Position numbers and translations under genes: made by a program. This document shows, piece after piece, positions 9,638 through 36,372 of a stretch of 64,000 nt of DNA. The notes under the pieces were generated by a model. It made no database searches. It saw only the letters and a list, made by a program, of their open reading frames with translations, and was not told the DNA's origin. Position 1 is the first letter of the stretch; the number at the start of each line of letters is the position of its first letter. Source of the stretch: Sphingorhabdus sp. 109 (lineage in GTDB: Bacteria > Pseudomonadota > Alphaproteobacteria > Sphingomonadales > Sphingomonadaceae); contig NZ_LR732707.1 in the NCBI RefSeq assembly GCF_902506555.1, forward strand, positions 2,379,290-2,443,289. Direction: 5' to 3'.

Positions 9638-9939
9638 TCGTGCAGACGCTGGACGGTGAATTCATTCACGTCTGAGTCAATGGCCTTGCCGTGGTCGCGG
9701 CACATCCAGATACCGTTTTCTGCAGAGGAGCGCTCTGCGGGTGTCATTTTCTCGTCATAGCGCGGGCCACCGGGCGATGCGGCGCAGATATGGGCTGCTG
9801 TGCCGATATTGATTTCACCGTCCCCATCCGCCGTCGCACCAACTGTCGGCGTGCGGCATGGCGGAAACGAACAAAGCCAGCCCGCGCGTTTCGCGATCTG
9901 GAGCACTGTCTTTTGTGAAAAATCGTCTCTAGTTTTCAT
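9385..9939 (-). CDS. HNH endonuclease domain, probably the frameshifted N-terminal effector of the NACHT protein
   Basis: Residues 1-103 form an HNH domain: C23 and C28 (WLCSFPPC), the AHI motif with H50, SSAENGIWMC with N75 and C80, and RDHGKAID with H83. Such domains cut DNA. After residue 102 (LHEWK) the translation turns into compositionally odd sequence that overlaps the NACHT frame by 253 bases, while the -1 frame continues smoothly into the ATPase. The change falls at a run of five A (9629-9633). One extra A would give a single HNH-NACHT protein of about 1450 residues. The start chosen is MKTRDDFSQK; the frame extends seven codons further. Either this is a real mutation, an assembly error, or recoding. 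Confidence 0.75.
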   Translation of the reverse strand: MKTRDDFSQKTVLQIAKRAGWLCSFPPCRTPTVGATADGDGEINIGTAAHICAASPGGPRYDEKMTPAERSSAENGIWMCRDHGKAIDSDVNEFTVQRLHEWKNWRKRNHGGASCGMKHLHHSRRNPMTIYTCGFAMPQKPILRCFGTRRNGPPQLFRSDSKWTDSANRQRPTPLRVRSCHWMI

Positions 9940-10239
9940 CGCAAGCGCATAGTTACACAAATTTTTCTATCTCGGCTCGCTAAAACTTGGCCGGCGTTGC
10001 TTAACATAGCTTACCGCCGCTTAATCAGCAGTTCTTTAGGTGGAGACGGTGGAAACCAGACCGTTTGCAACCGGCCCAATTCCCGCCGGTCTGAAATGCG
10101 CCCTCATCTCAGTCATTGAAGTTACACCTCCGATCTCCCGAAAACGGACATTGATGTGTTAAAAGTTGATTGGCTGTTTCTCGCTTCATAGTAATGCGCG
10201 ATATAACTATACGAGCGGTGGCATGGCAGTGCTAAATGC
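9940..10239. other. Divergent intergenic region of the defence genes
   Basis: 300 bases separating the HNH gene from the nuclease-like gene on the other strand. A possible sigma-70 type promoter for the rightward gene is TTGATT at 10166-10171, a 17-base spacer and TAGTAA at 10189-10194. Nothing else is recognisable. Confidence 0.3.
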
Positions 10240-11638: not shown

Positions 11639-12268
11639 TTAACGGGACAATGTCGAATAGGCCCATGACCGCTCCCGCTCGTCAAGGTCGCGAAAGGCGG
11701 CGATTGTATCAGACAAAGTCAGCGTAAGGGCGATCGGGTCAAGGCCGGAAAGCAGGGCACGCTTTTCCTCACTCTCGATTTCGAAGGTCCAGCGACCGCC
11801 AACTTCGTCCTGCAATATCTGCTCTTCCAGATTGACCGTCAGGAGGGAGCCAGGTGCCGCGGCGAGCCCGCGAGCGATAGGATCGATGATCGAGGCCGCG
11901 AGAACGACCGGCAACACGCCATTGGCCAGACAATTTTTACGGAAGATCGGATTAAATGAGGGCGCAATAATCGTTCGGAACCCATATTCGGCCAACGCCC
12001 AGACGGCGTGCTCGCGACTTGATCCGCAGCCAAAATTCTCCCCGGCGACCAGTATTCTGGCATTCTTTAGTGCCGGATCATTGAGCATGAAATCGGGATC
12101 CGGATCGCGTTCGCCGATCGACAAATAGCGCCACCCCGCGAACAGGCCGTCAGCCAGACCACTTTTCGATACTTGCCGTATCTCTCGCGAAGGAATGATC
12201 GCGTCGGTATCCACATTGTCCCGCATCAGCGGAGCCGCGACGGCGGTAAAGGTCGTGAAGGGCTCCAT
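11639..12268 (-). CDS. leuD: 3-isopropylmalate dehydratase-type small subunit (LeuD-like), probably a citraconate/alkylmaleate hydratase subunit
   Basis: 209 residues. It shows the LeuD swivel-domain motifs: RDNVDTDAIIPSREI at about 16-30, the substrate-binding GENFGCGSSREHAVWAL and the C-terminal hydrophobic core. Together with the large subunit it forms a 4Fe-4S (de)hydratase. The gene starts one base after the large-subunit stop. The neighbours are a class III CoA-transferase and an HMG-CoA-lyase-family enzyme rather than leucine genes, so the substrate is more likely citraconate, or a substituted maleate, than isopropylmalate. That assignment is inference; leucine synthesis stays possible. 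Confidence 0.88.
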   Translation of the reverse strand: MEPFTTFTAVAAPLMRDNVDTDAIIPSREIRQVSKSGLADGLFAGWRYLSIGERDPDPDFMLNDPALKNARILVAGENFGCGSSREHAVWALAEYGFRTIIAPSFNPIFRKNCLANGVLPVVLAASIIDPIARGLAAAPGSLLTVNLEEQILQDEVGGRWTFEIESEEKRALLSGLDPIALTLTLSDTIAAFRDLDERERSWAYSTLSR

Positions 12269-12269
12269 C

Positions 12270-13673
12270 TCAGATCTCCAGCTTACGCGGATCAGCGATA
12301 TGCCCGGCGATCGCCGAGGCGGCAACGGTTTCCGGTGAGGCGAGATGCGTGCGGGTGCCCGGACCCTGACGGCTTTCGAAATTCCGGTTCGTCGATGATA
12401 CCACGCGGTCCTGCGGGCCGAAACTTTCGCCTCCCGCGAAGAAACACATAGAGCAACCCGATTCGCGCCATTCGAAGCCGGCACGCTGGAACACGTGATG
12501 TAAGCCTTCCTCCTCCGCCTGACGTTTGACATTGCTTGATCCCGGAACGCATATTGCCTTCACGCCGGGCGCAACTTTTCGACCGTCAAGTATAGCCGCG
12601 GCCCGTCGCAGGTCGCTAATCCGGCTGTTCGTGCATGAACCGATAAAGGCTGCGTCAATTGTCAGCGACTCCAGCGCAGTGCCTGCCTCCAGACCCATAT
12701 ACTGCAGCGCGCGCGGGTAGCCTTCGGCCATAGCCTTTCCAATTTCCCCGACGGCTGGCACAGCACCGTCGATCGCCACCACCTGTTGCGGCGTAGTGCC
12801 CCAGGTGACCATCGGTGCGACGTCACCCGCATCAAAAGTCAGTTCAGTATCAAAGACCGCCTCGGCATCGCTGCGCAGAGCGAGCCAGTCCCGCACGGCG
12901 CGGTCCCATTCGTCGCCGACGGGCGCGTACCGGCGCCCCTTCACATAATCGACTGTGGTTGCATCGGGTGCGATGATCGCGCTGAACGCGGCAAATTCCG
13001 TGCCCATGTTACACAAGGTCAGTCGCTGTTCGATATCAAGTGCCTCCACAGCACTGCCCGCATATTCGACTATATGCCCGGCGGCGCCGCCGACACCGAA
13101 ACGGCCGAGCAACGCGAGTGCGAGATCCTTGGCCGTTACGCCGCGCGCAAGCCTGCCCGAAATAGTGATCCGCATCCGCCCAGGCCGCTGGACACGCAAG
13201 GTAGAAGTGGCGAGCGCATGTTCGGCCTCGGTCGATCCGATGCCCCACGCCAGCGCACCGAGCGCGCCCTGCGAACAGGTATGGCTATCGGGACAGATCA
13301 GCGTCGTGCCTGGCAGTACTATGCCCAGTTCGGGCGATATGACATGGACGATTCCCTGATCGGGGCTGTCGAGGTCAAAAAGACGGATACCGGCGGCGTG
13401 GGTGCCCTCGCGGGTCGCAACAATGAAATCCTTACCGGTTGGCATCAGCGTCTCGCTGGTGCGCCCTGGAAAGGTGTCGACGATATGATCCATGACCGCA
13501 AAAACATGATCGGGATCGCGAACGGCAATATCACGTGCAAGCAAGCTTTTCAGCGCTACCCCGCCGGTTCGCTCGTGGAGCAAAATGCGATCGACGAAGA
13601 CCAGATCGGTCTCGCCAGTAGGGGAACCGATCCTATGACCGTCCCAAATCTTATCGAATATAGTCCGTTGCAA
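12270..13673 (-). CDS. leuC: 3-isopropylmalate dehydratase-type large subunit (LeuC-like), probably a citraconate/alkylmaleate hydratase subunit
   Basis: 467 residues, normal for LeuC. Cluster ligands are C347 (GSCTNSRISD), C407 and C410 (SGCSMC); the conserved CPDSHTCSQGALG block is at about 127-139. The enzyme family moves water across a C=C bond in alkyl-maleate or malate-type acids. The start appears to be TTG 13673 with GAGGG a few bases upstream, 11 bases after the CoA-transferase stop. The order CoA-transferase, large, small on one strand and a lyase on the other matches a path from an alkyl-maleate to its malate, the CoA ester and then cleavage. DmdA-like (dimethylmaleate hydratase) function is another option. 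Confidence 0.88.
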   Translation of the reverse strand: MQRTIFDKIWDGHRIGSPTGETDLVFVDRILLHERTGGVALKSLLARDIAVRDPDHVFAVMDHIVDTFPGRTSETLMPTGKDFIVATREGTHAAGIRLFDLDSPDQGIVHVISPELGIVLPGTTLICPDSHTCSQGALGALAWGIGSTEAEHALATSTLRVQRPGRMRITISGRLARGVTAKDLALALLGRFGVGGAAGHIVEYAGSAVEALDIEQRLTLCNMGTEFAAFSAIIAPDATTVDYVKGRRYAPVGDEWDRAVRDWLALRSDAEAVFDTELTFDAGDVAPMVTWGTTPQQVVAIDGAVPAVGEIGKAMAEGYPRALQYMGLEAGTALESLTIDAAFIGSCTNSRISDLRRAAAILDGRKVAPGVKAICVPGSSNVKRQAEEEGLHHVFQRAGFEWRESGCSMCFFAGGESFGPQDRVVSSTNRNFESRQGPGTRTHLASPETVAASAIAGHIADPRKLEI

Positions 13674-13684
13674 GACGCCCTCAC

Positions 13685-14806
13685 CTAATTGAAATCGATG
13701 CCATTGCTACTCTCAGCACGCGGCAAATCGTGTTGCAAACCCATCCTTTTCCCATCAATTTCAAGTGGAAGGGCAGGAAGTTTCGCGCGGCTACCATCGT
13801 CGAGAGTTATCTCTACAAAACCACCGCTGGCGAGCAGGTGCTGATCTTCGAGCAGATCGTCGGGACGCATGATTGGTGCGTAAGGCAAGCCGATTGATTT
13901 CAGTCTGCCAACCAGTTCATCGCGCGTCATCGCACCGAAAAGCTCGCGGATGACGGGAAGAATATGTTCGCGCTGGCGCACCCGCTCATTATTGACCGCA
14001 AGCGTCTGATCCGCGGCGAGCTCGTCCAGTCCCATCACCTCGCAAAAGGCCACCCATTGGGGATCGCTGACGACGCCGACAAAGAGCTGCTCATCCGGGT
14101 TAACCGTTTCAAAGACGTCATAGACCGCCCAAGCCGAAATCCGGGCAGGCATCGGCGGCGCGGTCGTGCCAGTCACTGCCTTTTGCGCTATATGCTGGCC
14201 TACCAGAAAGGCGGTTGTCTCGAACAACGAGCATTTCACTTCGCCACCCTTATCGGTCCGGTGCCGGCGTTCAAGCGCAGCAAGGATACCGATGACCCCG
14301 AACATGCCCCCGGTTACATCTATAACCGAAGCACCGGCACGCAAAGGCCGTCCGGGAGGGCCGGTCATATATGCAAGGCCACCCATCATTTGCGCGACTT
14401 CGTCGAGTGCGGTTCGGTTCTCATATGGGCCAGTAAGAAAACCCTTGGCGCTGCAATAAATGAGACGCGGATTGCTCTTTGTAATATCTTCCGGTCCAAG
14501 GCCGAGCTTCGCCAAAGCACCCGGGCGGAAGTTTTCTATCATCACGTCGGCTTCATCAATCAGGCGGCGGGCTTCGGCATTGCCTCGTTCACTCTTGAGA
14601 TCGAGGCAAACGCTGCGCTTGTTGCGATTGAACATCGGAAAATAGCCCGCACCCGAGCCCAACAGACGGCGGGTATGATCGCCGCCTTCCGGCTCTACCT
14701 TGATAACGTCAGCGCCAAGATCCCCCAGCATCAGGCCGATCGACGGGCCCATCACCATATGGGTGAACTCGACAACTTTAATCCCTTCCAGCGGCAACGG
14801 CTCCAT
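13685..14806 (-). CDS. Class III (CaiB/BaiF) CoA-transferase, candidate citramalate CoA-transferase
   Basis: 373 residues of the family III CoA-transferases, with the N-terminal GIKVVEFTHMVMGPSIGLMLGDLGADVIKVEPE, the RNKRSVCLDLK and MIENFRPGALAKLGLG blocks, and the probable catalytic Asp135 in TALDEVAQMMGG. These enzymes move CoA between acids through an Asp-CoA anhydride. By analogy with the succinyl-CoA:(R)-citramalate transferase of Chloroflexus, which sits beside a lyase gene, it may activate citramalate or a substituted malate made by LeuCD. It is the first gene of the minus-strand operon. AGGGA precedes the ATG, and a copy of the cluster operator lies in the promoter. Confidence 0.88.
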   Translation of the reverse strand: MEPLPLEGIKVVEFTHMVMGPSIGLMLGDLGADVIKVEPEGGDHTRRLLGSGAGYFPMFNRNKRSVCLDLKSERGNAEARRLIDEADVMIENFRPGALAKLGLGPEDITKSNPRLIYCSAKGFLTGPYENRTALDEVAQMMGGLAYMTGPPGRPLRAGASVIDVTGGMFGVIGILAALERRHRTDKGGEVKCSLFETTAFLVGQHIAQKAVTGTTAPPMPARISAWAVYDVFETVNPDEQLFVGVVSDPQWVAFCEVMGLDELAADQTLAVNNERVRQREHILPVIRELFGAMTRDELVGRLKSIGLPYAPIMRPDDLLEDQHLLASGGFVEITLDDGSRAKLPALPLEIDGKRMGLQHDLPRAESSNGIDFN

Positions 14807-14868
14807 TTTATCCCTACTCTTTCAAATCTAATCAGCGATATCTTGTCTCTCGACATCTCGATCTTATT

Positions 14869-14885
14869 TGATATAGATATAGGAC
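14869..14885 (-). promoter_or_regulatory. Cluster operator copy 1, between CoA-transferase and lyase genes
   Basis: Minus-strand sequence GTCCTATATCTATATCA, 63 bases upstream of the CoA-transferase start and about 20 upstream of the lyase start, so it could control both directions. It matches five other sites in this cluster. Confidence 0.55.
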
Positions 14886-14905
14886 ATTAAAGCAAGCAGA
14901 GGTTT

Positions 14906-15880
14906 ATGTCCGAAGAAATATTTATTAGCGAAGTGGGCCCACGCGACGGGTTACAGAGCATTACGGCAGTCATGCCGACTGCTGCCAAAAAGGCATGGAT
15001 TGCGGCCGAATCAGCTGCGGGCGTGCGCGAGATAGAGGTTGGAAGCTTTGTACCCGCCACGTTGCTGCCCCAGCTTGCCGACACGGCCGAGATTGTTGCG
15101 TTCGCCAAGACAATTCCCGATCTGACCGTTGCCGTACTCGTGCCGAATCTCCGCGGCGCACAGGATGCTTTATCGGCGGGCGCCGACAAAATTACCGTGC
15201 CGCTTTCGGTTTCCGAATCTCACAGCCTCGCCAATCTGCGCCGCACCCACGATCAGGTGATCGAGGAAGCGACCCGTATCGCTGCGGCGATTGCCAGTTT
15301 GCCGGAAGGCAGACGCCCGCATTTTGAGGGCAGCCTTTCCACCGTATTCGGATGCACCATCGAAGGCGCCATTCCAGAATCCCAGATCTTACGCCTGGCC
15401 GAACGACTGATGGAAGCAGGCTGCGACGAAGTCGGTCTTTCGGACACTACCGGCTATGCCGATCCAAGCGCGGTGCAGCATATGACAAAGGCGGTACGCG
15501 GCGTTGTCGGCGACCACGCGCTGACCGGCATCCATCTGCACAACACGCGCGGCCTCGGTCTTGCCAATGTGCTTGCTGCACTGGACGCCGGGCTCACTAC
15601 CGTTGACAGTTCGCTAGGCGGAATAGGCGGCTGCCCGTTTGCGCCAGGAGCAAGCGGCAATATCGTGACCGAGGACCTTGTCTTCATGTTACAGGCGATG
15701 GGATTCCGAACCGGCATCGATCTGGAAAAACTTCTGGCGGTTCGAAAAATCGTACAGGAAGCGCTTCCGGGAGAAGCACTTTACGGATTCACACCAGATG
15801 CCGGACTGCCGCTTGGTTTTGAAGGCGAAATTGACCCAAAAGAACTGGAAACCACGATATGCCGATCGGCACCAAAATGA
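14906..15880 (+). CDS. HMG-CoA lyase family enzyme, candidate (R)-citramalyl-CoA lyase
   Basis: 324 residues of the HMGL-like TIM barrel family. Metal and catalytic residues are visible: R13 and D14 (EVGPRDGLQ), H210 and H212 (GIHLHNT), and the catalytic Cys243 in GGCPFAPGASGN. The family cleaves 3-hydroxy-3-methyl acyl-CoA esters. The sequence also fits the (R)-citramalyl-CoA lyase of the 3-hydroxypropionate cycle, which belongs to this family and yields pyruvate and acetyl-CoA. The divergent CoA-transferase and hydratase genes support that reading, but leucine or HMG-CoA breakdown cannot be excluded from sequence alone. Confidence 0.88.
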   Translation: MSEEIFISEVGPRDGLQSITAVMPTAAKKAWIAAESAAGVREIEVGSFVPATLLPQLADTAEIVAFAKTIPDLTVAVLVPNLRGAQDALSAGADKITVPLSVSESHSLANLRRTHDQVIEEATRIAAAIASLPEGRRPHFEGSLSTVFGCTIEGAIPESQILRLAERLMEAGCDEVGLSDTTGYADPSAVQHMTKAVRGVVGDHALTGIHLHNTRGLGLANVLAALDAGLTTVDSSLGGIGGCPFAPGASGNIVTEDLVFMLQAMGFRTGIDLEKLLAVRKIVQEALPGEALYGFTPDAGLPLGFEGEIDPKELETTICRSAPK

Positions 15881-16536
15881 TCTGCGAAAATAAGACAGCA
15901 CGTCAGTTGTTCGAAGAGGTAATGGCCAACCCGGCCCGGAAGAAATTCGGCTTCGGCGAGAAGCTCGCGATCGTCAACGTCGATGTCCAGCAGGCCTATA
16001 CCCGACTCGACATGTTCAAGACGTCCTATGAAACCGATCCACGCCAGATCGAACATATCAACACGATTTCGCGCCTTGCCCGCGAACGCGACATGCCGGT
16101 GATCTGGTCGCATGTCGCCTATAAGGCCGATGCGGGTGATGCGGGAATCTGGGGTACCCGGACCGATACCGAGGATTCGCTGCAAAACATCAAATATGGA
16201 AGCGAGCGACATGCGTTCGATCAGCGTTGCGCCATCGACGAGAATGACCTTGTCTATACCAAAAGAATGCCGAGCGCCTTTTTCGAAACCCAGCTGGCCA
16301 GCTATCTGACTTGGCACAAGGTCGACACCGTCGTCGTGACCGGAGGTTCGACCTCGGGCTGCGTCCGCGCAACCGCGGTAGACAGCCTCAGCCACGGCTA
16401 CAGGACCATCGTCCCGATCGAGACCTGCGCTGACAAGCATGAAAGCTATCACTTCGCCAATCTGACCGACCTGCAGCTCAAATATGCCGATGTCGAGCCG
16501 GTGCAGGCGGTGATCGACTGGCTGGAGGCCCGCTGA
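15877..16536 (+). CDS. Isochorismatase-family cysteine amidase (N-carbamoylsarcosine/maleamate amidase type)
   Basis: 219 residues with the family triad: D36 (VNVDVQQAY), K129 (YTKRMPSAFF) and the nucleophile C162 in GGSTSGCVRATAVDS. These enzymes hydrolyse amides such as N-carbamoylsarcosine, maleamate and half-amides of dicarboxylic acids, releasing ammonia. ATG 15877 overlaps the stop of the lyase gene (ATGA); an upstream ATG at 15859 is possible. The two PuuE-like hydrolases follow with overlapping stops and starts, so the three enzymes are almost certainly co-translated and probably act in sequence, ring opening then half-amide hydrolysis. Confidence 0.88.
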   Translation: MICENKTARQLFEEVMANPARKKFGFGEKLAIVNVDVQQAYTRLDMFKTSYETDPRQIEHINTISRLARERDMPVIWSHVAYKADAGDAGIWGTRTDTEDSLQNIKYGSERHAFDQRCAIDENDLVYTKRMPSAFFETQLASYLTWHKVDTVVVTGGSTSGCVRATAVDSLSHGYRTIVPIETCADKHESYHFANLTDLQLKYADVEPVQAVIDWLEAR

Positions 16537-17465
16537 TGCGCGAAAGTGAAAAAGATCCCGGACTCTATGATTTCCGGCCATATCGTGATCGAACGAAGAT
16601 CGAATGGCCCGAGGGCAAGACGGTCGCTGTCTGGGTCTCGCCCAATCTCGAATATTACGAGATCGATCCGCCGGCCAACCCCCAGCGCAAGAGCTGGCCA
16701 AGGCCGCATCCCGATATCGTCCCCTACGGGCATCGTGACTATGCCAACCGTATCGGTCATTGGCGGATGGCCGAGGTGATGGAGAAGCACGGCTTCAAAG
16801 GATCGGTCTCGCTGTCGGTCGCGCTGTGCCAGCATCATCCAGAAGTCGTCGCCCATGCCAACGCACTGGACTGGGAGTTTTTCAGCCACGGAATCTACAA
16901 CACCCGCTACAGCTATGGTATGGACGAAGCACAGGAACGCGCGATCATCGAGGATTCGATCAAGACCGTCCGCGATGCGACGGGGCAGACGATCAAGGGA
17001 TGGCTGGCACCTGCGCTCACCCATACACCGCGCACGCTCGACCTTATCGCCGAATATGGTATGACCTATACCTGTGACCTCTATCATGACGACCAGCCCG
17101 GACCGGTCCACGTCAAGGACGGACGGCTGATCTCCATGCCCTACAGTATCGAGGTCAATGACCATTATGGCTTCTTCGTCTACAACATGTCCCCGCGCGA
17201 ATATGCTGACACGCTGATCCGGCAATATGAACGGCTCGCCGCCGAGGGTGAACAATCGGGCACCGTCATGTGCATCCCGTTGCACAGCTATCTGATCGGC
17301 CAGCCGCACCGGATTGGTCCTTTCGAGGAGGTGCTGAGGCATATCGCCGCCGACGGGCGGGCATGGATCACCCGGTCGGGCGATATCGCCGACCATTTTC
17401 TCGCCAACGATTATTATGACGCGACCGCGGCCGACGCCGCACGCTATGCGAAGGACGCCGGATGA
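16536..17465 (+). CDS. Polysaccharide-deacetylase-fold amidohydrolase, PuuE/cyclic-imidase type (copy 1)
   Basis: 309 residues of the PuuE-like branch of carbohydrate esterase family 4. The layout is that of PuuE allantoinase and of the cyclic imide hydrolase of Pseudomonas putida: EWPEGKTVAVWVSPNLEYYEIDPP, then YGHRDYANRIGHWRMAEVMEKHGFKGSVS, HGIYNTRYSYGMDEAQERAIIEDSI, and GWLAPALTHTPRTLDLIAEYGMTYTCDLYHDDQP. Members open cyclic ureides or imides rather than deacetylate sugars, and no signal peptide is present, so it acts in the cytoplasm. Start and stop overlap both neighbours. It differs clearly from the second copy, which suggests a division of substrates or a heteromer. Confidence 0.82.
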   Translation: MRESEKDPGLYDFRPYRDRTKIEWPEGKTVAVWVSPNLEYYEIDPPANPQRKSWPRPHPDIVPYGHRDYANRIGHWRMAEVMEKHGFKGSVSLSVALCQHHPEVVAHANALDWEFFSHGIYNTRYSYGMDEAQERAIIEDSIKTVRDATGQTIKGWLAPALTHTPRTLDLIAEYGMTYTCDLYHDDQPGPVHVKDGRLISMPYSIEVNDHYGFFVYNMSPREYADTLIRQYERLAAEGEQSGTVMCIPLHSYLIGQPHRIGPFEEVLRHIAADGRAWITRSGDIADHFLANDYYDATAADAARYAKDAG

Positions 17466-18388
17466 GCCTCGACCCCTCCTATCTCGAATATCCCAAGCGC
17501 CGTGAAGGCATGGACCATGGCCTCTATGTTCCCTCTCCCATTCCCACACGCAAGCCGTTTGCATGGCCTGATCGCAAGACCGTGGCCGTCACGCTGCTGG
17601 TCAACCTCGAATGGTTCCCGATCACACCGGAAGATGCGCCTTTCCGCGCGCCCGGTCATATGGTGACCCCTTATCCCGACTATCGCCATTATACGGCGCG
17701 CGAATATGGCACACGGGTTGGCTTTTACCGCCTGCTCGACGCCTTTGCGAAGGCCGGAGTACATGCGACTATCGCGGTAAATGCCGCCATTGCCGAACGC
17801 TACCCTTCCATCATCTCGGATATCCTGGCTGAAGGCCATGAGATCATCGCCCATTCGACGGATATGAACGGAACTATCGCGACCGGCTTACCCGAAGCTG
17901 AAGAGCGCGCACTGATCGTTCAGGCACGCGATACGCTGGCCGGGGCAATGGGCACGATGCCGCGGGGCTGGCAGTCGATCGCGCGGTCGCAGAGCTGGAA
18001 TACGCCGCGCCTGCTGGTCGAAGAAGGTTTCGATTATATGTGCGATTGGGTGAACGACGATCTGCCCTATCTCGCGACGACCGAGGCTGGCACGATCGTC
18101 AGCATGCCATTCAACCACGAACTTTCCGACCGGCAGATGATCGCCCTGCAGCAGCATTCCATGGAAGACGTCACCCGACAGATCGAGGACGCGTTCGACT
18201 GGCTGGGCATCGAGGCGGACCGGTTTGGCGGTCGCGTGTTACCGTTTACAATCACGCCCTATATCACTGGCCTGCCCCACAGGATGGACGCTTTCGAACA
18301 GCTGCTCGGAAAGCTGGCCGGGTCCAGCAAGAGCTGGTTCGCGACCGCCGGCGAAGTGGTGGACAGCTGGCAGGGCCAGACGGGCTGA
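17462..18388 (+). CDS. Polysaccharide-deacetylase-fold amidohydrolase, PuuE/cyclic-imidase type (copy 2)
   Basis: 308 residues, paralogous to the preceding gene and overlapping it by 4 bases. Shared blocks include WPDRKTVAVTLLVNLEWFP, TAREYGTRVGFYRLLDAFAKAGVHATIAVNAA, HSTDMNGTIATGLPEAEERALI, GWQSIARSQSWNTPRLLVEEGFDYMCDWVNDDLPY and the closing SWFATAGEVVD. The third block reads HSTDMNGT against HGIYNTRY in copy 1, so the presumed active-site loop differs. No signal peptide. Likely substrate: a cyclic imide or ureide, inferred from the family and the adjacent amidase. Confidence 0.82.
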   Translation: MSLDPSYLEYPKRREGMDHGLYVPSPIPTRKPFAWPDRKTVAVTLLVNLEWFPITPEDAPFRAPGHMVTPYPDYRHYTAREYGTRVGFYRLLDAFAKAGVHATIAVNAAIAERYPSIISDILAEGHEIIAHSTDMNGTIATGLPEAEERALIVQARDTLAGAMGTMPRGWQSIARSQSWNTPRLLVEEGFDYMCDWVNDDLPYLATTEAGTIVSMPFNHELSDRQMIALQQHSMEDVTRQIEDAFDWLGIEADRFGGRVLPFTITPYITGLPHRMDAFEQLLGKLAGSSKSWFATAGEVVDSWQGQTG

Positions 18389-18395: not shown

Positions 18396-18710
18396 CTATT
18401 CGTTCGCCTGGGCACGGGGATCTATAAGAACCCGTAGTGCGCGCATCAACAATGCGTCGGTCGCGTCCTGACGTTGTTCGGCGACCTCTCCCTCATAGCG
18501 GATATCGCGTAGCGTCGCGACATCCTCGCCGCGCATTTCCGCAACCAACCTTTCAAGCCTGTCGATCCTGTCATTGGCGACTGACAGCTCGACGAGCAGC
18601 GCCAGAGCGATATTGAGCGTCTCCTCGGCTTCGCGATTGTCAAGACTTTGGGGACGTTGTCCACGCGCAGATTCGATCAGCGCGGCAATGGCTTGAGCTT
18701 GGTTGGTCAT
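18396..18710 (-). CDS. Small helical protein paired with methyltransferase (paralogue of 26295-26603)
   Basis: 104 residues, acidic and helical, with a probable coiled coil in LVELSVANDRIDRLERLVAEM followed by a second helix ending LLMRALRVLIDPRAQ. No known family. Its ATG overlaps the methyltransferase stop (TAATG), so the two are coupled. A protein of the same size and layout is encoded at 26295-26603. It may be a small partner or adaptor subunit. Convergent with the PuuE-like gene, with only seven bases between. Confidence 0.72.
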   Translation of the reverse strand: MTNQAQAIAALIESARGQRPQSLDNREAEETLNIALALLVELSVANDRIDRLERLVAEMRGEDVATLRDIRYEGEVAEQRQDATDALLMRALRVLIDPRAQANE

Positions 18711-19840
18711 TAGATAGGTTTCCTGCCGCTGATTGCATACCAGCGATTATTTGCCATGCCATGTAGCGCCGAAAGATCATGTTCGACGACATTGTCCTCG
18801 GGAAACCCGGCGGCAATCATATCGGCCTGCAGATTGGCCGTTGCATAGGTGTTCCAGTGCACCTCACCGTTGAAATGCGTGTCCCAATCGCGCTCGATTT
18901 CATGCACCAGTGTCGGCTGGTTGCGGATGGCGACATCCTGATGAATGACGATGCCTCCAGGACGGGCCAGACGGAAAGACTCGCCTATCATCGCGCGACG
19001 CTTTTCCTCACCGATTTCGTGCATCAGGTTGTGCGAGACAACAAGGTCAAAACTTTCGTCTTCGAAACGCATGTCCGAAGCATCCATCTGATGGAAATGC
19101 ACGGCGACGCCAAGCGACTCCGCACGGGCATGGCCATAGCGCAGCATGCCGGCGCCGAGGTCAACCGCATGGATTTCGACGTCAGGCCATTCGGCGGGAT
19201 AGGCGGCGGAGGCAGCTCCCGCTGAACAGCCGATATCGAGCATCTTGGCCGGTTTGAACCCGTCGAATTCTTCATTGAGTAGCCGCATGATGACACCCGC
19301 CTTGCTGTCGCCGCGACCGATCCCCTGGCCGAAGGAAAAGACATTGCCACCACATTCGTACAGCGCGCCTGAAACAACATCATAGTCGCTGCGATTCATC
19401 GCATATCCGCCGGGCTGGAGATGGATGTCGACATCTGCCACTTCCGGTGAGGGATCATAGGACGAATCCAGCGAGAGGCTCCCAAGCTTGTCATCGGCTT
19501 CGATCAGCTCCTTCGTCGCCTGCTCCATACGTTCGAGATCACGATAGGTTGGCTCTCCGACGGAAACCCATATCATCTCCTGGGCGGACCGGTTAGCGGC
19601 GCTCCACATCCGATAGCCGGGGGACATCAGAAAGGCTTCGCGTACTTCTTCGTGCGATTGAGGCTGACGACCATGACGTTCGGCGAACGCGGGAGCCGCT
19701 TCGGATTCGAATATCCCGACGTTTCTTGGCCTGACCTTGCTATTTAGCAGCCGGCGCAGCGAAACAACCGCGTTCTGCCTACTGCCTTCCTCGGCAGTCG
19801 TGCGGGGAAGAACGGCATGTTGAACGTCACGAACCTTCAT
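18710..19840 (-). CDS. SAM-dependent methyltransferase with unrecognised N-terminal domain (copy 1)
   Basis: 376 residues. The C-terminal part is a class I methyltransferase: motif I AKMLDIGCSAGAASAAYP at about 200-217, then EIHAVDLGAGMLRYGHA, DLVVSHNLMHEIGEEKRR and RLARPGGIVIHQD. About 190 residues precede it and share a pattern with the paralogue at 31589-32800, including DVDIHLQPGGYAMN and NVFSFGQGIGRGDSKAG. I do not recognise that N-terminal domain; it may bind substrate. AAGGAG lies six bases before the ATG, and cluster operator copy 2 is about 50 bases upstream. The substrate is unknown. Confidence 0.83.
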   Translation of the reverse strand: MKVRDVQHAVLPRTTAEEGSRQNAVVSLRRLLNSKVRPRNVGIFESEAAPAFAERHGRQPQSHEEVREAFLMSPGYRMWSAANRSAQEMIWVSVGEPTYRDLERMEQATKELIEADDKLGSLSLDSSYDPSPEVADVDIHLQPGGYAMNRSDYDVVSGALYECGGNVFSFGQGIGRGDSKAGVIMRLLNEEFDGFKPAKMLDIGCSAGAASAAYPAEWPDVEIHAVDLGAGMLRYGHARAESLGVAVHFHQMDASDMRFEDESFDLVVSHNLMHEIGEEKRRAMIGESFRLARPGGIVIHQDVAIRNQPTLVHEIERDWDTHFNGEVHWNTYATANLQADMIAAGFPEDNVVEHDLSALHGMANNRWYAISGRKPI

Positions 19841-19891
19841 CTCAAACTCCTTGTTTCACCCAAAGGGCGGATTCCATATTTCGGCTATATT

Positions 19892-19906
19892 GTTCTATCT
19901 ATATCA
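19892..19906 (+). promoter_or_regulatory. Cluster operator copy 2, upstream of methyltransferase 1
   Basis: GTTCTATCTATATCA, flanked by TT and CAA. It is two bases shorter in the spacer than the other copies. It lies in the 70-base gap between the methyltransferase start (19840) and the VOC gene stop. Confidence 0.45.
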
Positions 19907-19910
19907 CAAT

Positions 19911-20843
19911 TCAACGCGATTCGATCAACTCAATTAATTCGCCGGCGGGCCCGGTCAGGACAAGCGAGCGCCGGCCACCGTAACAGGTACCTGCCGAGAC
20001 CATCTCTGGTCCATCTGCAAGTTCGACGAAGGGAGAAAGGCTGGCAACCTCGAAACTGACAATCGCATTGCCGGGCGGCAAGTGCTCGTCGAGACGGGGT
20101 CGAACTCCGGCGATATAATCACTACCTGTAGGATATTCGTCGAGCTCGATCAGATTCCCGTGCTGCGCCATCCCGATTGCGCTGAGCGAAAAGGCGTGAT
20201 CAGCAGGAAGATTCTGGGCATGCTGAAGCACTCCTACCTTGCTCTTGCGCACCGGTCTTTCCCGCAATCTGAAATGGTCCACATACCAGCGAAGCATCGG
20301 ATCAAAATCCGAACCTGCGGCTACGACGATAAATGGCCGCCCGACGAAGCCCGAAGGCCTGGGCAGAATTGATGCCTTCCGGTCGCCACTCTCCATTGTA
20401 AAATAAAGGCATTCATCGCCCGGGCCCGCGACCTGCATAGCGACGATCGACGGCATGAACTGGAGCGGACTCGGCCCTGCGAGATGCCGGAAGGGTGAAG
20501 CGTCCAGCCGGTCCGCCAATGCATAGACATCGTCGACTATTATTTCGAATGCCGTCCAGCCAAAGCTGGTCAAAGGTGAATAGTCCGGCACGGCTGGTGC
20601 TTCGATAAGTCGGATAAAGATATCGTCTTCATTTTCGGGACGCAAGGTGCAGAAGGCAGTACCGGCCGTAGCGGGTGCACCCCAGCGCTGGGCGAGGGCC
20701 TGATCGATCCGGCCTCTTTCCAACACCCGGTACCCAAGCAGTTCGCCATAACAGGATTCGGCGGCGGTGATATCTGGAACGGTCGCAGTCGTGCCGGAAA
20801 TCCTCAGCAGCTGCGGTTCCGTATCGCTGGTCCAGTCGTTCAT
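19911..20843 (-). CDS. Two-domain VOC (glyoxalase/dioxygenase superfamily) protein
   Basis: 310 residues with two vicinal-oxygen-chelate modules. The first begins ISGTTATVPDITAAESCYGELLGYRVLER, the second around FIVVAAGSDFDPMLRWYVDHFRLRE. The closing beta segments SIVAMQVAGPGDECLYFTMES and SLVLTGPAGELIELIES are typical. The family includes glyoxalases, extradiol dioxygenases and isomerases. I cannot place the metal ligands securely, so activity is unassigned. GGGGA precedes the ATG. It has its own promoter with cluster operator copy 3 upstream. Confidence 0.8.
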   Translation of the reverse strand: MNDWTSDTEPQLLRISGTTATVPDITAAESCYGELLGYRVLERGRIDQALAQRWGAPATAGTAFCTLRPENEDDIFIRLIEAPAVPDYSPLTSFGWTAFEIIVDDVYALADRLDASPFRHLAGPSPLQFMPSIVAMQVAGPGDECLYFTMESGDRKASILPRPSGFVGRPFIVVAAGSDFDPMLRWYVDHFRLRERPVRKSKVGVLQHAQNLPADHAFSLSAIGMAQHGNLIELDEYPTGSDYIAGVRPRLDEHLPPGNAIVSFEVASLSPFVELADGPEMVSAGTCYGGRRSLVLTGPAGELIELIESR

Positions 20844-20888
20844 TCTGCAGATTCCCCACTATGATGCTGGCATCGTAGCGATTTAATT

Positions 20889-20905
20889 GTTATATTTCTA
20901 TATCA
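20889..20905 (+). promoter_or_regulatory. Cluster operator copy 3, upstream of VOC gene
   Basis: GTTATATTTCTATATCA, 46 bases upstream of the VOC gene start and just downstream of the GntR gene stop. Confidence 0.5.
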
Positions 20906-20930
20906 ATAATCCGAGAAACTGGAAAGACCG

Positions 20931-21710
20931 TCAGATAATCTGCGGTTCCAGAATACGGGGAGAATTCAGATCGAGGCGAATCTGGTAACGATCAGGGCGG
21001 AACTGGGCGAGGATGTGTTGCACCGGCCGTTCATTCACGTCGAAGACGGTCCGGCTGACCCGCAGGATTGGCGATCCGATGTCGACGTGCAGGCTCGCCG
21101 AAACTGCAGCGTCAGCAAGTGTGGCCGAGATCGTCTGATGGGCGGCGCCAATATGCGCGCCCGCGTCCTCGAGCAACGTCAGCATTGGTGTCGTTTTGAG
21201 ATTGGCACGTGTCATTGCCTTGCCGAGATCGGAAGGAATGTAGCTGACGAAATGGCCAAGCGGCTCACCATCGAGCCAGCGGGTACGAACCACGCGCAGA
21301 AGCTCGGTCCCGGCTGGCAAATCAAGCGCCTCGTCAATCGGTGGTCGCGCAGAGACCATATCCACCTCAAGCAGCTTGACCTGCGTCGCGCGGCCAAAAT
21401 TGCGCAGCGATTCGAGCGCCTGCTCGATATTGCCGTGAATCGGTCGCGCCGGCGAACGAAAGATCACATGGGTACCGACCCGACGCTTGCGTTCAACAAG
21501 TTGGTGGTCAGCCAGTTCTTCAAGGGCACGCCGCGCGGTGATGCGCGAGACCTGATATTCTTTGGTCAGTTCCTGCTCGGTCGGCAGCCGCGATCCGAAG
21601 GCGCGCTCCCCGCTCGTGATTTCTTCGCGCAGCTGCAGAAATATCTGGTGGTACAATGGCACTGCCTGATCACGATCCACACCTGCCTTGCCGCCGTTCT
21701 TTCCGGTCAC
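20931..21710 (-). CDS. GntR-family transcriptional regulator, HutC/UTRA type
   Basis: 259 residues. An N-terminal winged helix (VPLYHQIFLQLREEITSGERAFGSRLPTEQELTKEYQVSRITARRALEELADHQLVERKRRVGTHV, about 17-82) is followed by a UTRA ligand-binding domain (PAGTELLRVVRTRWLDGEPLGHFVSYIP; PVQHILAQFRPDRYQI near the end). Proteins of this type repress catabolic genes and let go on binding a pathway acid or sugar. It is the only regulator inside the 26-kb catabolic cluster, so it is the best candidate for the repeated palindrome found at six promoters. Starts at GTG 21710 after GGGGAG. Confidence 0.9.
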   Translation of the reverse strand: MTGKNGGKAGVDRDQAVPLYHQIFLQLREEITSGERAFGSRLPTEQELTKEYQVSRITARRALEELADHQLVERKRRVGTHVIFRSPARPIHGNIEQALESLRNFGRATQVKLLEVDMVSARPPIDEALDLPAGTELLRVVRTRWLDGEPLGHFVSYIPSDLGKAMTRANLKTTPMLTLLEDAGAHIGAAHQTISATLADAAVSASLHVDIGSPILRVSRTVFDVNERPVQHILAQFRPDRYQIRLDLNSPRILEPQII

Positions 21711-26672: not shown

Positions 26673-28982
26673 TCAGAAGTCGTAACGCAAACGCGCCATC
26701 CAACGACCCGGATCACTGAGATAGGGGTAGATCAGGAAGGAGGTCATGTAGAGATCGTCAAAGCAGTTGTTGCATTCGAGGCCTAGCGACCAGCCCTCAT
26801 CCGAACGCAATGTAACCCCGCCGTTCACGACGCCGTGGCCCGGTTGATAGCCCCGCGGATCGTTTGAAGTCGAGACCCAGGTTGAACTGATGTAATTCCA
26901 GTTCACAGCGGGCTGGATCGACAATCCGTTACCAAGTTCCCAATTGTAGCTGGCGCCTACCGTTGAAGTGAAGGACGGAGCGCGTGTCGGTTCCGCGATC
27001 TGTCCATCGGGTGTGATGATGCTGACATTACATGCAGTCACGTCACCAGCCACACAACTCGCCTGTTGTGCAAGCGTGATATCATTGACATTTTTGAAGC
27101 TCGCGTCCTGCAAACCAAACGACCAGAAGACGTTCAGTCCGTCAATCGGCGTCGTCGAAAGCTCGACTTCGAGTCCATAGTTCTGCATGTCCGCAACATT
27201 ACGCGTCAGATAGGTGATCGTACCCGTCAATGGGTTGAGGCCACCGCCTGGAAGCTGCTGATCATAATCGGTGAAGTAGAAACCAGTCAGGTTTACCGTA
27301 AGACGGCGGTCAAACCATTGCGAACGGACACCGCCTTCGAATGACCAGATCGTTTCGGGTGTGAAGGCCGCTGCATTGTCAGGTGAATAGGCCCGGGCGT
27401 TCCAGCCTCCGGATTTGAAACCGCGTGTCGCCGACGCGAACAGCATGACATCATCGGCCGCTTGGTACTGCAACGCGAACCGTGGCGTCCAGACCTTGGA
27501 GCGCTGCTCGACCGGTATACCGAGATCAATTAGATCCTGCGTGTCGAAAGGAACCGCCGAAGAGGTCAGTGGTAACGAGTTCACATTGGGTGAATAGGCA
27601 ATGGTTTTCCGTTCATCCGTGTAACGCACGCCGGCCGTAAACGTCAGATCCGGCGTCAGATGAAAGTCGCCCTGGATATAGCCGGCATAGGCTTCGGTAT
27701 CGTTGGACATGACCCGGTCACCATTCAGGAACGCCGTTCCGCTGGACAGGATGAGCAAGTTCGCGAAGTCTGTTTCGTTGGTTTCGTTGATATAATAGAC
27801 ACCGGCAACATAGTCGAGCAGGCCATCAAAAGCTTCGCCGCTGAATTTGATCTCCTGGCTGAACTGACCATGCCAGCTGTCACTTGCCAGAGGAATCCCG
27901 GCGCCGGGCGAAGCCGACACGAGGTTCACGCCATCGATGACGACACCGGTTGCACCGGCGAGACTCTCCGTCAGGAATTCCTGATAAAGATGACGATAGC
28001 CGGTAATGACATTGAGCGTGGCATTGCCACCCACTTCGACCTCGAGATTAGAGCTGATGGAATAGCTTTCGGCGAGATTGCCAGCAGTGTTGTCAGCGAG
28101 CCGCGAAGAAACCAGATCGCTGCCGAGCGGGGTATCGGCACTGATTTGTGTGTAGGTAATGCGCTGATCGGTCGTCGGATCGTAAAAATGCGGGAGATTG
28201 GCGTTTGAATTATGAATATAATCGGCCGAAATATCCCATTTGACGGTGTCGGAAAGATGCGCCTGAACAGCTCCGCGAAGCCCCCAATTCTCTTCACCGT
28301 TCAGCTTATCTCCGGTGCTCAGATTGTTCACGTAACCGTCGGATTCGATATAATAGCCAGAAAGCTTGGTGAGCAGCTGGTCCTCGATCAGCGGCACATC
28401 GACCGAAGCGCGTAACTGGACGCGGTTGAAACGACCGTAACCTACCTCGGCAAAGCCCCCAAATTCGTTCTGTGGACGCGCCATTATGACGTTGATCGCA
28501 CCACCTGTAGTATTGCGACCGAAGAGCGTACCCTGCGGCCCGCGCAATACTTCTACGCGTTCGACGTCGAACAGCGAGAAATTGTTGGCACCCTGACGCG
28601 AGACATAGATGTCGTCAATATATGTGCCAACCGGCGGATCGAAGGTCGAGATCGATTCCGAGTTGGCGAGGCCGCGCATCGCGTAGGCGTTGGCGGTGCC
28701 GACTGCCGTATTATGATGGCCGATTAGGTTGGGAACATAGTTGACGAGATCCAGCGTATCAGTGACCTGCCTGGCTTCCAGTTCCTGCGCACCGAAGGCA
28801 GAAACGGCCAAAGGCACCTCCTGCAGCGACTCCTCGCGACGCTGCGCGGTTACGATGATCTCTTGCGGTGCGTTAGACGCCTCTGCCTCGTCGGATGCAG
28901 CAACCTGCGCTAATACCGACGTTGACGAAAGAAGTGTTCCGCTGATCAGAAGGGCGTACCCTGTAGTCTTGTAGTTCATCAT
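26673..28982 (-). CDS. TonB-dependent outer-membrane receptor
   Basis: 769 residues: signal peptide MMNYKTTGYALLISGTLLSSTSVLA, a TonB box-like QEIIVTAQRREESLQEVPLAVSAF, plug domain with ERVEVLRGPQGTLFGRNTTGGAINV at about 145-170, and a beta-barrel that ends YLSDPGRWMARLRYDF with the usual terminal aromatic. Proteins of this sphingomonad subgroup import siderophores, sugars or hydrophobic compounds. Its place inside a catabolic cluster, with cluster operator copy 4 about 80 bases upstream, suggests it imports the substrate of the pathway rather than iron. Confidence 0.93.
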   Translation of the reverse strand: MMNYKTTGYALLISGTLLSSTSVLAQVAASDEAEASNAPQEIIVTAQRREESLQEVPLAVSAFGAQELEARQVTDTLDLVNYVPNLIGHHNTAVGTANAYAMRGLANSESISTFDPPVGTYIDDIYVSRQGANNFSLFDVERVEVLRGPQGTLFGRNTTGGAINVIMARPQNEFGGFAEVGYGRFNRVQLRASVDVPLIEDQLLTKLSGYYIESDGYVNNLSTGDKLNGEENWGLRGAVQAHLSDTVKWDISADYIHNSNANLPHFYDPTTDQRITYTQISADTPLGSDLVSSRLADNTAGNLAESYSISSNLEVEVGGNATLNVITGYRHLYQEFLTESLAGATGVVIDGVNLVSASPGAGIPLASDSWHGQFSQEIKFSGEAFDGLLDYVAGVYYINETNETDFANLLILSSGTAFLNGDRVMSNDTEAYAGYIQGDFHLTPDLTFTAGVRYTDERKTIAYSPNVNSLPLTSSAVPFDTQDLIDLGIPVEQRSKVWTPRFALQYQAADDVMLFASATRGFKSGGWNARAYSPDNAAAFTPETIWSFEGGVRSQWFDRRLTVNLTGFYFTDYDQQLPGGGLNPLTGTITYLTRNVADMQNYGLEVELSTTPIDGLNVFWSFGLQDASFKNVNDITLAQQASCVAGDVTACNVSIITPDGQIAEPTRAPSFTSTVGASYNWELGNGLSIQPAVNWNYISSTWVSTSNDPRGYQPGHGVVNGGVTLRSDEGWSLGLECNNCFDDLYMTSFLIYPYLSDPGRWMARLRYDF

Positions 28983-29062
28983 TTTAGCCTTCCCTGGTGT
29001 ACAGATTTTTCTAGATCAAACCCAATTTGCATCACTTGTCCGGCGTGATCTGAAACTCATTT

Positions 29063-29079
29063 GTCCTATTTATATATCA
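29063..29079 (+). promoter_or_regulatory. Cluster operator copy 4, upstream of the TonB receptor
   Basis: GTCCTATTTATATATCA, 80 bases upstream of the receptor start, in the 230-base gap before the hydrolase gene. Confidence 0.55.
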
Positions 29080-29212
29080 TAATTTTCCTTAGTCCAATAG
29101 TTTTTGTTTGGGAGCGAAACTCACTAAAATTACATATATTTTACAATTTCTTATAGCTGTATCGATTGGCCGATTTCGCCAGCGATCCCGTCAATCTATA
29201 TTAGCATCTTGA

Positions 29213-30034
29213 TCATAAATCAGAAAATTGTCTTAGATAGGTAATGACGAGTGCATTCCATTCCTCAGCCCGGTCAAGCACCATGCCGGGACCGCCAGGT
29301 AATTCCGCATAGGCCCAGTCGGGCCGTGCCTCGACGATTTGCTTTCCCCAAGAATAGATCGGGTCTGTGCGACTCGCGACTACAAGCGTAGGGCAGCGGA
29401 TTTTGGGCACGTCAGCCCGAAAATCATATTTCGGAATGACGCTGTGACCATGCTCTTTCCAAGGCCCGTGAAGAAAATAGGTGAGGACAGATATATGGAG
29501 TGTTTCGTCACTCCAGTCGGGGTCGCCTGTTGCCCGTACCCAACGCCAGCGATCGGTGAGGTGGCTACCGTCTTGGGAAATATCCTGGTTATCAGAAAAT
29601 TTGCCAATCCGCGAAGCGCGCTCTTCGCTGGAGTAAAATGGGGCGTTATCCAGAATTAAGCCCGTGACGAGATCGGGATGCACGGCAGCCAGACGGCCTG
29701 CAGCAAGGCCGCCGCCACGATGACCGAGAAGAATTGCCGACCCAATACCGAGCGCCTTTAGCAGCACGGCCAGATTCTCCCCATAACACTCTATGCTCGG
29801 CTGCTGGGGAGGGTCTGACATCCCGTGAGCCGGCAGATCAATGGCGATTGCATGAAAACCGGCATGCGCAATGACTGGCAGCACATGCCGGAACTGGAGT
29901 GAAGACCAAGGCGCCTGATGGACAAGCAGCACCGCTGGACCTTCTCCGAAGCTGCGATAATGGATTTGGCCGTCGGGACCATCGACATAACCGCGCCGTT
30001 CATTCGGCAAGGCGGTCATGATCGGAAGCTTCAT
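29213..30034 (-). CDS. Alpha/beta-hydrolase-fold protein lacking the nucleophile serine and histidine
   Basis: 273 residues with the alpha/beta hydrolase layout: oxyanion region LLVHQAPWSS, AIDLPAHGMSDPP, nucleophile elbow LLGHRGGG at about 103-109, and acid VASRTDP (D224). The elbow has Arg106 where Ser, Cys or Asp is expected, and the usual catalytic His site reads GGPGMVLDRAEEW with Pro249. The protein is otherwise intact, so it may be a non-hydrolytic member, such as a binding protein or decarboxylase-like enzyme, and not a decaying gene. ATG 30034 has AGGTG upstream; the frame extends 12 codons further. It has its own operator copy. Confidence 0.8.
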   Translation of the reverse strand: MKLPIMTALPNERRGYVDGPDGQIHYRSFGEGPAVLLVHQAPWSSLQFRHVLPVIAHAGFHAIAIDLPAHGMSDPPQQPSIECYGENLAVLLKALGIGSAILLGHRGGGLAAGRLAAVHPDLVTGLILDNAPFYSSEERASRIGKFSDNQDISQDGSHLTDRWRWVRATGDPDWSDETLHISVLTYFLHGPWKEHGHSVIPKYDFRADVPKIRCPTLVVASRTDPIYSWGKQIVEARPDWAYAELPGGPGMVLDRAEEWNALVITYLRQFSDL

Positions 30035-30146
30035 TGAATCACCTGCTTTTTCGACATACAGTCCCGCCACCCACCGTGATCAGATCCATTTCCTTCGGGG
30101 TGCATATCCAGTCCATTCTTAGCCAGATTCTAAAGTGGCGATAATC

Positions 30147-30163: not shown

Positions 30164-30168
30164 ATTGA

Positions 30169-31572: not shown

Positions 31573-31588
31573 TCAGATTCGTATCGCC

Positions 31589-36367: not shown

Positions 36368-36372
36368 ATGGC

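Follow-up and report, generated by a model that had tools for sequence, protein, structure and literature searches.

We analysed a 64,000-nucleotide stretch of the Sphingorhabdus sp. 109 genome (NZ_LR732707.1, G000:C2:2379290-2443289; genome size 3.62 Mb), hereafter the window, which carries a cluster of seven intact reading frames at 11639-18388. Profile models from Pfam and NCBIfam placed all seven proteins in families (Table 1), and genes and families alike agree with a preliminary description of this DNA, whose six enzymes correspond to the seven genes when LeuCD is counted as one. The genes form two divergent units separated by a 99-bp gap: CaiB, LeuC and LeuD on the minus strand, and HMGL, an isochorismatase-family amidase and two PuuE-like proteins, here called PuuA and PuuB, on the plus strand. 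Within each unit the genes are tightly packed, adjoining ones overlapping or abutting within a few bases. The cluster, which recurs with exchanged parts in this genome and is common in sphingomonads, looks like an undescribed route that opens cyclic imides and then cuts the product into ordinary metabolites.

Table 1. Genes and operator-like elements of the cluster and its surroundings, in window coordinates
Feature	Position	Strand	Remarks
LeuD-type small hydratase subunit	11639..12268	-	209 aa from ATG at 12268; Aconitase_C 6.3e-29
LeuC-type large hydratase subunit, dedicated clade	12270..13673	-	Aconitase 1.8e-149
CaiB, class III (CaiB/BaiF) CoA-transferase	13685..14806	-	CoA_transf_3 2.9e-106
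Operator-like element TTGATATAGATATAGGACA	14868..14886	+	begins 38 bp before HMGL start codon
HMGL-family lyase, proposed alkylmalyl-CoA lyase	14906..15880	+	HMGL-like 1.6e-49; HMG-CoA-lyase motifs kept
Isochorismatase-family amidase, proposed half-amidase	15859..16536	+	Isochorismatase 6.6e-29; Asp-Lys-Cys positions kept
PuuA, PuuE/cyclic-imide-hydrolase-like, proposed catalytic subunit	16536..17465	+	Polysacc_deac_1 6.9e-7; allantoinase PuuE model 4.5e-32
PuuB, paired paralogue of PuuA, proposed partner subunit	17462..18388	+	Polysacc_deac_1 4.4e-10; allantoinase PuuE model 2.7e-31
Small protein	18396..18710	-	beside methyltransferase-like gene, downstream of VOC
S-adenosylmethionine (SAM)-methyltransferase-like protein	18710..19840	-	
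Element, weak, 3 mismatches	19891-19909		69 bp before methyltransferase-like gene
VOC/glyoxalase-superfamily protein	19911..20843	-	kept in same cluster type
Element, exact to pattern	20888..20906	-	begins 63 bp before VOC start codon
GntR/UTRA regulator	20931..21710	-	candidate reader of the operator-like element
TonB-dependent outer-membrane receptor	26673..28982	-	likely uptake
Element, 2 mismatches	29062..29080	-	begins 98 bp before TonB receptor start codon

Conserved linkage and the PuuA-PuuB pair

The cluster genes occur together more often than chance would allow. As the preliminary description had proposed, the gene set was sought in other genomes: the best 80 of at least 523 PuuA relatives in a species-level genome collection were taken with up to 10 kb on each side, some stretches being ended by contig ends, and reference proteins were compared with them by tblastn (E of 1e-12 or lower, with the matched piece spanning at least 45% of the query); the sample leans towards sphingomonads and its loci are not independent. 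Amidase, PuuA and PuuB are together in 80/80 loci. LeuC and LeuD are each found in 60, CaiB in 62 and HMGL in 63, and the full set recurs in 58. PuuA is followed by an adjacent PuuB on the same strand in all 72 loci with both frames called. An isocitrate lyase (ICL)-type lyase is present in 8 loci and a flavin adenine dinucleotide (FAD) dehydrogenase in 14, ten of them at 69% identity or more. Among the matches listed, Parasphingopyxis lamellibrachiae holds the closest named relative of the cluster. A PuuB search of 32 genomes of the genus gave some match in 30 and a PuuB of at least 41% identity in 22, with a PuuA partner beside it in 21; the exception, G014, is a copy at a contig end.

Judged by sequence, PuuA and PuuB belong to two sister families whose pairing is ancient. 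In a tree each family is a clade of 17 proteins (supports 0.969 and 0.983), and the two branch alike; the PuuB branches are longer, and the single-gene relatives that were included fall outside both clades. The closest solved relative is PuuE allantoinase (PDB 3cl6; E 3.9e-25 for PuuA, 8.2e-22 for PuuB). Both proteins differ from it in being paired and in scoring 111.3 (PuuA) and 108.7 bits (PuuB) against the allantoinase PuuE equivalog TIGR03212, well under its cut-off of 424.6. Their predicted folds are confident, with predicted template-modelling scores (pTM) of 0.87 for PuuA and 0.85 for PuuB.

The two families part at the active site. Positions E39, H118, D185 and H250, which match the PuuE active site and are presumably catalytic, are invariant in PuuA in 75/75 frames (a length filter having removed three of the 78 called across the collection loci and the same genus) and in 9/9 plasmid copies. 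In PuuB the H250 position is Thr in 72 and Ser in one of 73 frames (79 before six were removed by length), which leaves the set incomplete, and 8/9 plasmid PuuB proteins lack at least one of E, H and H, five of them H118. Because only PuuA retains the full active-site set and the families are paired, one two-part hydrolase, with a catalytic PuuA and a degenerate PuuB partner, appears likelier than two separate enzymes. PuuB could alternatively act on a different substrate. The two independent PuuE-like hydrolases first envisaged give way here to the two-part hydrolase, PuuB having lost the active-site His and resembling a partner subunit.

Hydratase, lyase and amidase, and their exchange between loci

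The preliminary description had raised against itself the possibility that the window LeuCD is the only isopropylmalate dehydratase of the genome. It is not. A canonical LeuC at C2:1881169 scores 774.2 bits against the biosynthetic LeuC equivalog TIGR00170 (cut-off 560.25), and the window LeuC reaches 546.8 bits, narrowly below, while passing wider subfamily models. For the small subunit, TIGR00171 (cut-off 116.25) does not separate the window LeuD (188.2 bits) from the canonical one (182.8 bits). With canonical LeuCD elsewhere, the window LeuCD is unlikely to be a leucine-biosynthesis enzyme, yet LeuD alone would pass as LeuD.

The HMGL protein exceeds the cut-off of the hydroxymethylglutaryl-CoA (HMG-CoA) lyase subfamily (PRK05692; 280.6 bits over 246) and retains PRDGLQ, the E in IEVGSF, HLHN and GGCPFAPGA, deviating right after the SFV motif. 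Of the four HMG-CoA-lyase-like genes that we found in the genome, LeuCD and CaiB accompany two, and the other two stand beside CaiB together with HyuA/HyuB-like genes; given this company, a leucine-degradation lyase is an unlikely identity, methylcrotonyl-CoA carboxylase not having been searched for. A fifth PF00682 match, at C2:841099, is a 612-aa frame weakly similar to HMGL. Two loci of the same genome, L042 (C2:2465000-2482000) and L145 (C2:2525000-2540000), carry an HMGL-type lyase with CaiB and large HyuA/HyuB-type genes, identified by Pfam in L042 and by gene sizes and position in L145; an ATP-dependent lactam or hydantoin route with the same lyase idea is possible there. The amidase aligns best with 4l07 (107.5 bits), presumably the maleamate amidase of Pseudomonas putida S16, and next with the N-carbamoylsarcosine amidohydrolase 26st (104.3 bits), with its Asp-Lys-Cys triad in place.

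The tandem PuuA-PuuB pair is found three times in the genome, in clusters A (L037), B (the window) and C (L038). Cluster A repeats the whole set: one side has amidase, PuuA, PuuB, aldehyde dehydrogenase (ALDH) and alcohol dehydrogenase, the other an alpha/beta hydrolase, LeuC, LeuD, HMGL and CaiB, with identities to the window of 78% (PuuA), 82.5% (amidase), 63% (LeuC) and 68% (HMGL). Cluster C combines PuuA, PuuB, GntR and a major facilitator superfamily (MFS) gene with a Dmd-type LeuC, a LeuD/DmdB-type small subunit and a PrpB-family lyase. By family criteria these are a DmdAB-type hydratase and a dimethylmalate-lyase-type enzyme: the large subunit scores as archaeal/Dmd-type LeuC (PRK00402, 520.7 bits over 385), the small subunit as LeuD/DmdB subfamily (TIGR02087, 178.4 bits over 108.95), and the lyase has the KRCGH motif and counts methylisocitrate lyase and 2,3-dimethylmalate lyase among its solved relatives. 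The cluster C CoA-transferase is closest to succinate-glutarate CoA-transferase (445.5 of 750 bits), and an acyl-CoA dehydrogenase of Burkholderia plantarii falls below the glutaryl-CoA dehydrogenase cut-off (207.6 of 470 bits). Glutarate is at most a possible product of cluster C; it would imply that the substituent is carboxyethyl. L042 is a fourth locus, in which a single PuuE-like gene is joined by an FAD monooxygenase (FMO), an amidase 82% identical, an arylmalonate-decarboxylase-like gene, HyuA, HyuB, HMGL and CaiB.

Parts are also exchanged on plasmids and outside sphingomonads. Among 398 genomes drawn from the phylum, 15 (own included) matched the Burkholderia PuuB at 1e-50; larger stretches came from nine genomes, and G272, G059, G182, G198 and G224 were seen as 3.9 kb. 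On plasmids pJE1 and pTomTYG65b a single cluster contains LeuCD-CaiB-HMGL together with another LeuCD that has an ICL-type lyase, and Burkholderia plantarii has amidase-PuuA-PuuB with a DmdAB-type hydratase, an FAD enzyme and a PrpB-type lyase. A LeuC- or DmdA-like gene is present in 5 of 17 PuuA-like loci outside sphingomonads (among the 17, L182 has PuuA without PuuB and L184 was ended by a contig end). In L124, amidase-PuuA-PuuB stands with a LeuCD or Dmd hydratase and an ICL-type lyase, and its FAD enzyme, close to the pair, is a member of the fumarate-reductase/TcuA superfamily. L132, from Neorhizobium, has amidase, PuuA, PuuB, LeuC and LeuD followed by a branched-chain-amino-acid-type ABC transporter. 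L177 and L178 have an ICL-type lyase, amidase, PuuA, PuuB, FAD enzyme, GntR, LeuC and LeuD, and L180 has amidase, PuuA, PuuB, LeuC, LeuD, HMGL and an ICL-type lyase. Tricarballylate dehydrogenase as an identity for the FAD enzyme holds at superfamily level only (cut-off 369; scores 170.7, 165 and 117.2 bits).

LeuC proteins of at least three lineages occur beside PuuA-PuuB. When 18 LeuC proteins were placed in a tree, a split with support 1.000 set those of the window, cluster A and eight further loci, L180 among them, apart from the rest; L178 and Neorhizobium group with the canonical LeuC of the own genome and the second pJE1 LeuC (0.933); cluster C joins B. plantarii and L041 in a Dmd group (1.000); and L109's second LeuC lies by itself. 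The L177 LeuC, with no single frame of 330 aa, is outside the tree. Loci also differ in the amide hydrolase next to PuuA-PuuB, which the records name amidase in Salipiger and Agrobacterium, asparaginase in Arthrobacter (with three molybdenum-hydroxylase subunits ahead of the pair) and nitrilase-related in Terrarubrum; an isochorismatase-family gene is also kept in Salipiger, Terrarubrum and L181. The hydratases swapped beside PuuA-PuuB are thus dedicated LeuC, canonical-like LeuC and DmdA, and the lyases HMGL with CoA-transferase or the PrpB/ICL type.

Our main argument for the reaction order is that different proteins have been recruited to the same places. The swapping of hydratase and lyase beside the pair, together with the conserved linkage, backs the step order first proposed, and it is consistent with a single chemistry in which a ring is opened and deamidation follows, after which a substituted maleate is hydrated and the product cleaved. 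Alternatively, LeuCD-CaiB and HMGL could be an unrelated branched-acid route (leucine, itaconate or mesaconate type) that chance has placed beside an N-heterocycle operon. The two units are indeed transcribed divergently, and their protein families, with LeuD and HMGL passing the cut-offs, are best known from branched-acid routes. HMGL, however, is the first gene of a tightly packed run with amidase-PuuA-PuuB, LeuC is present in 60/80 loci, and other LeuC and lyase types have re-associated with the pair independently; we consider chance adjacency highly improbable.

Two further observations concern plasmids. L126, on the Acidiphilium multivorum plasmid NZ_CP041720.1 of conjugative type, has CaiB, HMGL, amidase, PuuA (83% identical), PuuB, LeuC, LeuD and an FAD enzyme, with transposase genes upstream, a probable transfer of the imide cluster outside sphingomonads. 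Kocuria, Microbacterium and Gordonia plasmids (L134, L135, L137) carry, close to genes for Rieske or ring-hydroxylating dioxygenases, a single PuuA-like gene and N-carbamoylsarcosine-amidohydrolase-like genes, another route.

An operator-like element and the genes around the cluster

A short element precedes the HMGL gene and recurs before neighbouring genes (Table 1). It follows the pattern TTGATATAGAnATAnnACA, by eye the near palindrome TGTTATA-N4-TATAACA. Genome-wide there are four sites with up to two mismatches, three in this region and one at C2:858003, and a reversed control pattern gave none. With up to three mismatches, the element lies at most 110 bp upstream of HMGL in 39/47 loci with a window-type HMGL, and in 30/38 once the nine discovery loci are removed; the 47 loci are related, and these counts are not independent. 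Random windows contained it in 20/4700 cases and base-shuffled upstream regions in 3/4700. The shared element would tie the HMGL operon to the VOC gene and the TonB receptor as a putative regulon, and the GntR gene is a natural candidate for its reader. The boundaries first drawn, 11639-18388, do enclose the seven genes, and the unit itself appears to extend further, to the VOC gene and TonB receptor linked by the element. No element was found in L037, L038, L040, L041 or L042; clusters A and C (L037 and L038) therefore apparently lie outside its control.

A second catabolic unit lies at 29213-36861, with an alpha/beta hydrolase, MFS, methyltransferase, FMO, arylmalonate-decarboxylase/maleate-isomerase-like, ALDH and SnoaL-like genes; it may make or finish the same substrate as the imide cluster. 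Orthologues of its FMO, Asp/Glu-racemase-like, ALDH, MFS and methyltransferase genes (30169-36367) occur within 10 kb of PuuA-PuuB in L053, L055 and L061. Oxygenases open the ring in the nicotinate and B6 pathways, and here the FMO (32926-34131) or the VOC protein could do so, leaving PuuA-PuuB to deacylate or deformylate an open-chain product ahead of a maleamate-type amidase. These orthologues, the shared element before the VOC gene, and a distant solved PuuA relative named peptidoglycan deacetylase (3qbu) all lean that way. Each of the genes is, however, near PuuA-PuuB in just 3 to 8 of 80 loci (at least 35% identity) and so not core, and the PuuE relatives with a function reported in the literature consulted open rings. 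We judge an oxygenase entry unlikely and retain ring opening by PuuA-PuuB.

A urea-carboxylase-type biotin enzyme of 1213 aa, with biotin carboxylase, CT_A_B and CT_C_D domains, lies at 59895-63536, about 41 kb from the cluster. It would suit a cyclic ureide route, in which PuuA-PuuB open a hydantoin- or dihydropyrimidine-like ring, the amidase removes an N-carbamoyl group, and LeuCD and the lyase process the acid. Such a route would also account for allantoinase PuuE being the best family model for PuuA and PuuB, for the amidase scores against two N-carbamoylsarcosine amidohydrolases (104.3 and 91.8 bits), and for a single PuuE-like gene standing with carbamoyl hydrolase, dihydropyrimidinase and hydantoinase genes in Sulfitobacter. 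Decarbamoylation, however, leaves an amino acid, which has no route through hydratase, CoA-transferase and lyase; no aminotransferase occurs among the identifiable recurrent neighbour genes, several neighbours being without identity; and sister lineages use an annotated amidase, asparaginase or nitrilase as amide hydrolase. A ureide substrate seems to us improbable beside a cyclic imide.

Other neighbours touch the cluster less directly. The methyltransferase-like protein (about 375-410 aa, its N-terminal part without family) and the small protein of 104-120 aa are a recurring pair, often beside these clusters (window 18396-19840; L037 4219-5810). An Old-yellow-enzyme family protein at 24313-26298, closest to 2,4-dienoyl-CoA reductase and NCR enzyme, is matched in 13/80 related loci, 11 at 65% identity or more, and could reduce a maleimide-like double bond. 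In the regions 2594-4210 and 5582-9960, a serine recombinase lies near two overlapping frames. Frame 5582-9637 encodes a 1351-aa protein with a NACHT-associated NCAB2 end, and frame 9385-9960 resembles endonuclease effectors and PDC-M68 in a defence library; 5582-9960 looks like one defence gene split over two frames.

A proposed route for substituted cyclic imides

From the observed gene content, linkage, pairing, residue conservation, part swapping and shared element we infer reactions, a complex, regulation and a class of substrate: with a probability of roughly 0.6, the cluster is a catabolic unit for a carbon-substituted cyclic imide of succinimide or maleimide type. After uptake, probably via the co-regulated TonB receptor, PuuA, probably complexed with its degenerate sister PuuB, would open the imide ring to a half-amide, from which the amidase would free ammonia. 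LeuCD would hydrate the resulting alkylmaleate, the CoA-transferase activate the alkylmalate, and the HMGL-type lyase cleave the product, giving an acyl-CoA and a 2-oxo acid; in the PrpB-type variant the cut would need no CoA. For a saturated substrate, the FAD dehydrogenase of some relatives could introduce the double bond. A methyl substituent would lead through citramalyl-CoA to pyruvate and acetyl-CoA, any other single substituent R to R-CO-COOH and acetyl-CoA, and a dialkylmaleate to a longer acyl-CoA. Citraconimide is one candidate substrate, with methyl as the substituent unproven.

Several points weigh against this route. PuuE itself opens a cyclic ureide. LeuD and HMGL pass their family cut-offs and LeuC nearly does, so that sequence allows the ordinary family substrates, and the amidase is nearly equally close to N-carbamoylsarcosine amidohydrolase as to its best match. 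One plasmid PuuB (L133) retains all four active-site residues. The full set is missing within the stretches taken (up to 10 kb on each side) in 22/80 loci, several of them Novosphingobium with only amidase-PuuA-PuuB; no LeuC-like gene lies within the examined stretch in 12/17 non-sphingomonad loci (L125, L127-L130, L133, L179, L181-L185), and the pair has no HMGL next to it in L124, L132, L177, L178 and L179. No FAD_binding_2 dehydrogenase was seen among the scanned window genes (11.6-36.9 kb).

The observation behind the preliminary description is nonetheless confirmed, and its pathway logic is partly supported by the comparative evidence, refined by a paired hydrolase, a larger regulon and interchangeable back ends. 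Its guess at a link to tetrapyrrole breakdown found nothing specific in its favour. An HbpS-like gene occurs in 10/80 loci only, and there is no heme oxygenase among the 25 families listed of 84 in a scan of 86 neighbour proteins (86 of the 99 listed representatives of 107 unassigned frame families, leaving out 13, mostly long). We consider it very unlikely that the PuuA-PuuB imide hydrolase with its interchangeable hydratase and lyase ends forms a widespread pathway consuming TonB-imported maleimides released by light or oxidation from chlorophyll, heme and bilins.

Known systems resemble the proposed route in part. In nicotinate fermentation by Eubacterium barkeri, the 2,3-dimethylmalate dehydratase DmdAB is followed by dimethylmalate lyase. 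Here too an aconitase-family hydratase would act on a substituted maleate and a lyase would cut the malate, and cluster C has relatives of both; the window differs in using LeuCD with a CoA-transferase and an HMGL-type lyase and in its entry by imide opening. The aerobic NicD-NicF-NicE nicotinate route likewise has an isochorismatase-family maleamate amidase, and some relatives of the cluster lie near FMO and Asp/Glu-racemase-like genes, whereas the window core is without maleate isomerase and would handle the diacid by hydratase and lyase. Itaconate and methylsuccinate degradation in Pseudomonas has, to our knowledge, different enzyme families and no nitrogen step. With the route proposed for the window it would share the activation of a branched C5 diacid with CoA and the cutting of citramalyl-CoA (PMC12290011).

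The nearest parallel is the cyclic imide hydrolase of P. putida and HxnM-HxnN of Aspergillus, in which a PuuE-related enzyme opens a cyclic imide and a separate amidase releases ammonia; the fungal relative is reported to open 3-hydroxyglutarimide, with the amidase next (PMC9304392). The HxnM-HxnN product is hydroxyglutarate (PMC9304392), whereas the window has two paired PuuE-family proteins and a hydratase and lyase for the proposed carbon-substituted product. The preliminary description knew of no operon of this content; the open-access papers searched, a scope outside which most subscription papers fall, gave no match joining polysaccharide deacetylase, isochorismatase and related terms.

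Plasmid records name the members of the set one by one, with labels such as polysaccharide deacetylase, 3-isopropylmalate dehydratase or hydroxymethylglutaryl-CoA lyase. The PuuA-PuuB pairing suggests an architecture of catalytic and degenerate subunits within the deacetylase fold, and at least 523 sites in the species-level genome collection encode a PuuA relative. If the proposed route is true, such annotations mislead in many sphingomonads, a whole catabolic route would become assignable at once, and the question of its substrate would be directly testable with a handful of imides.

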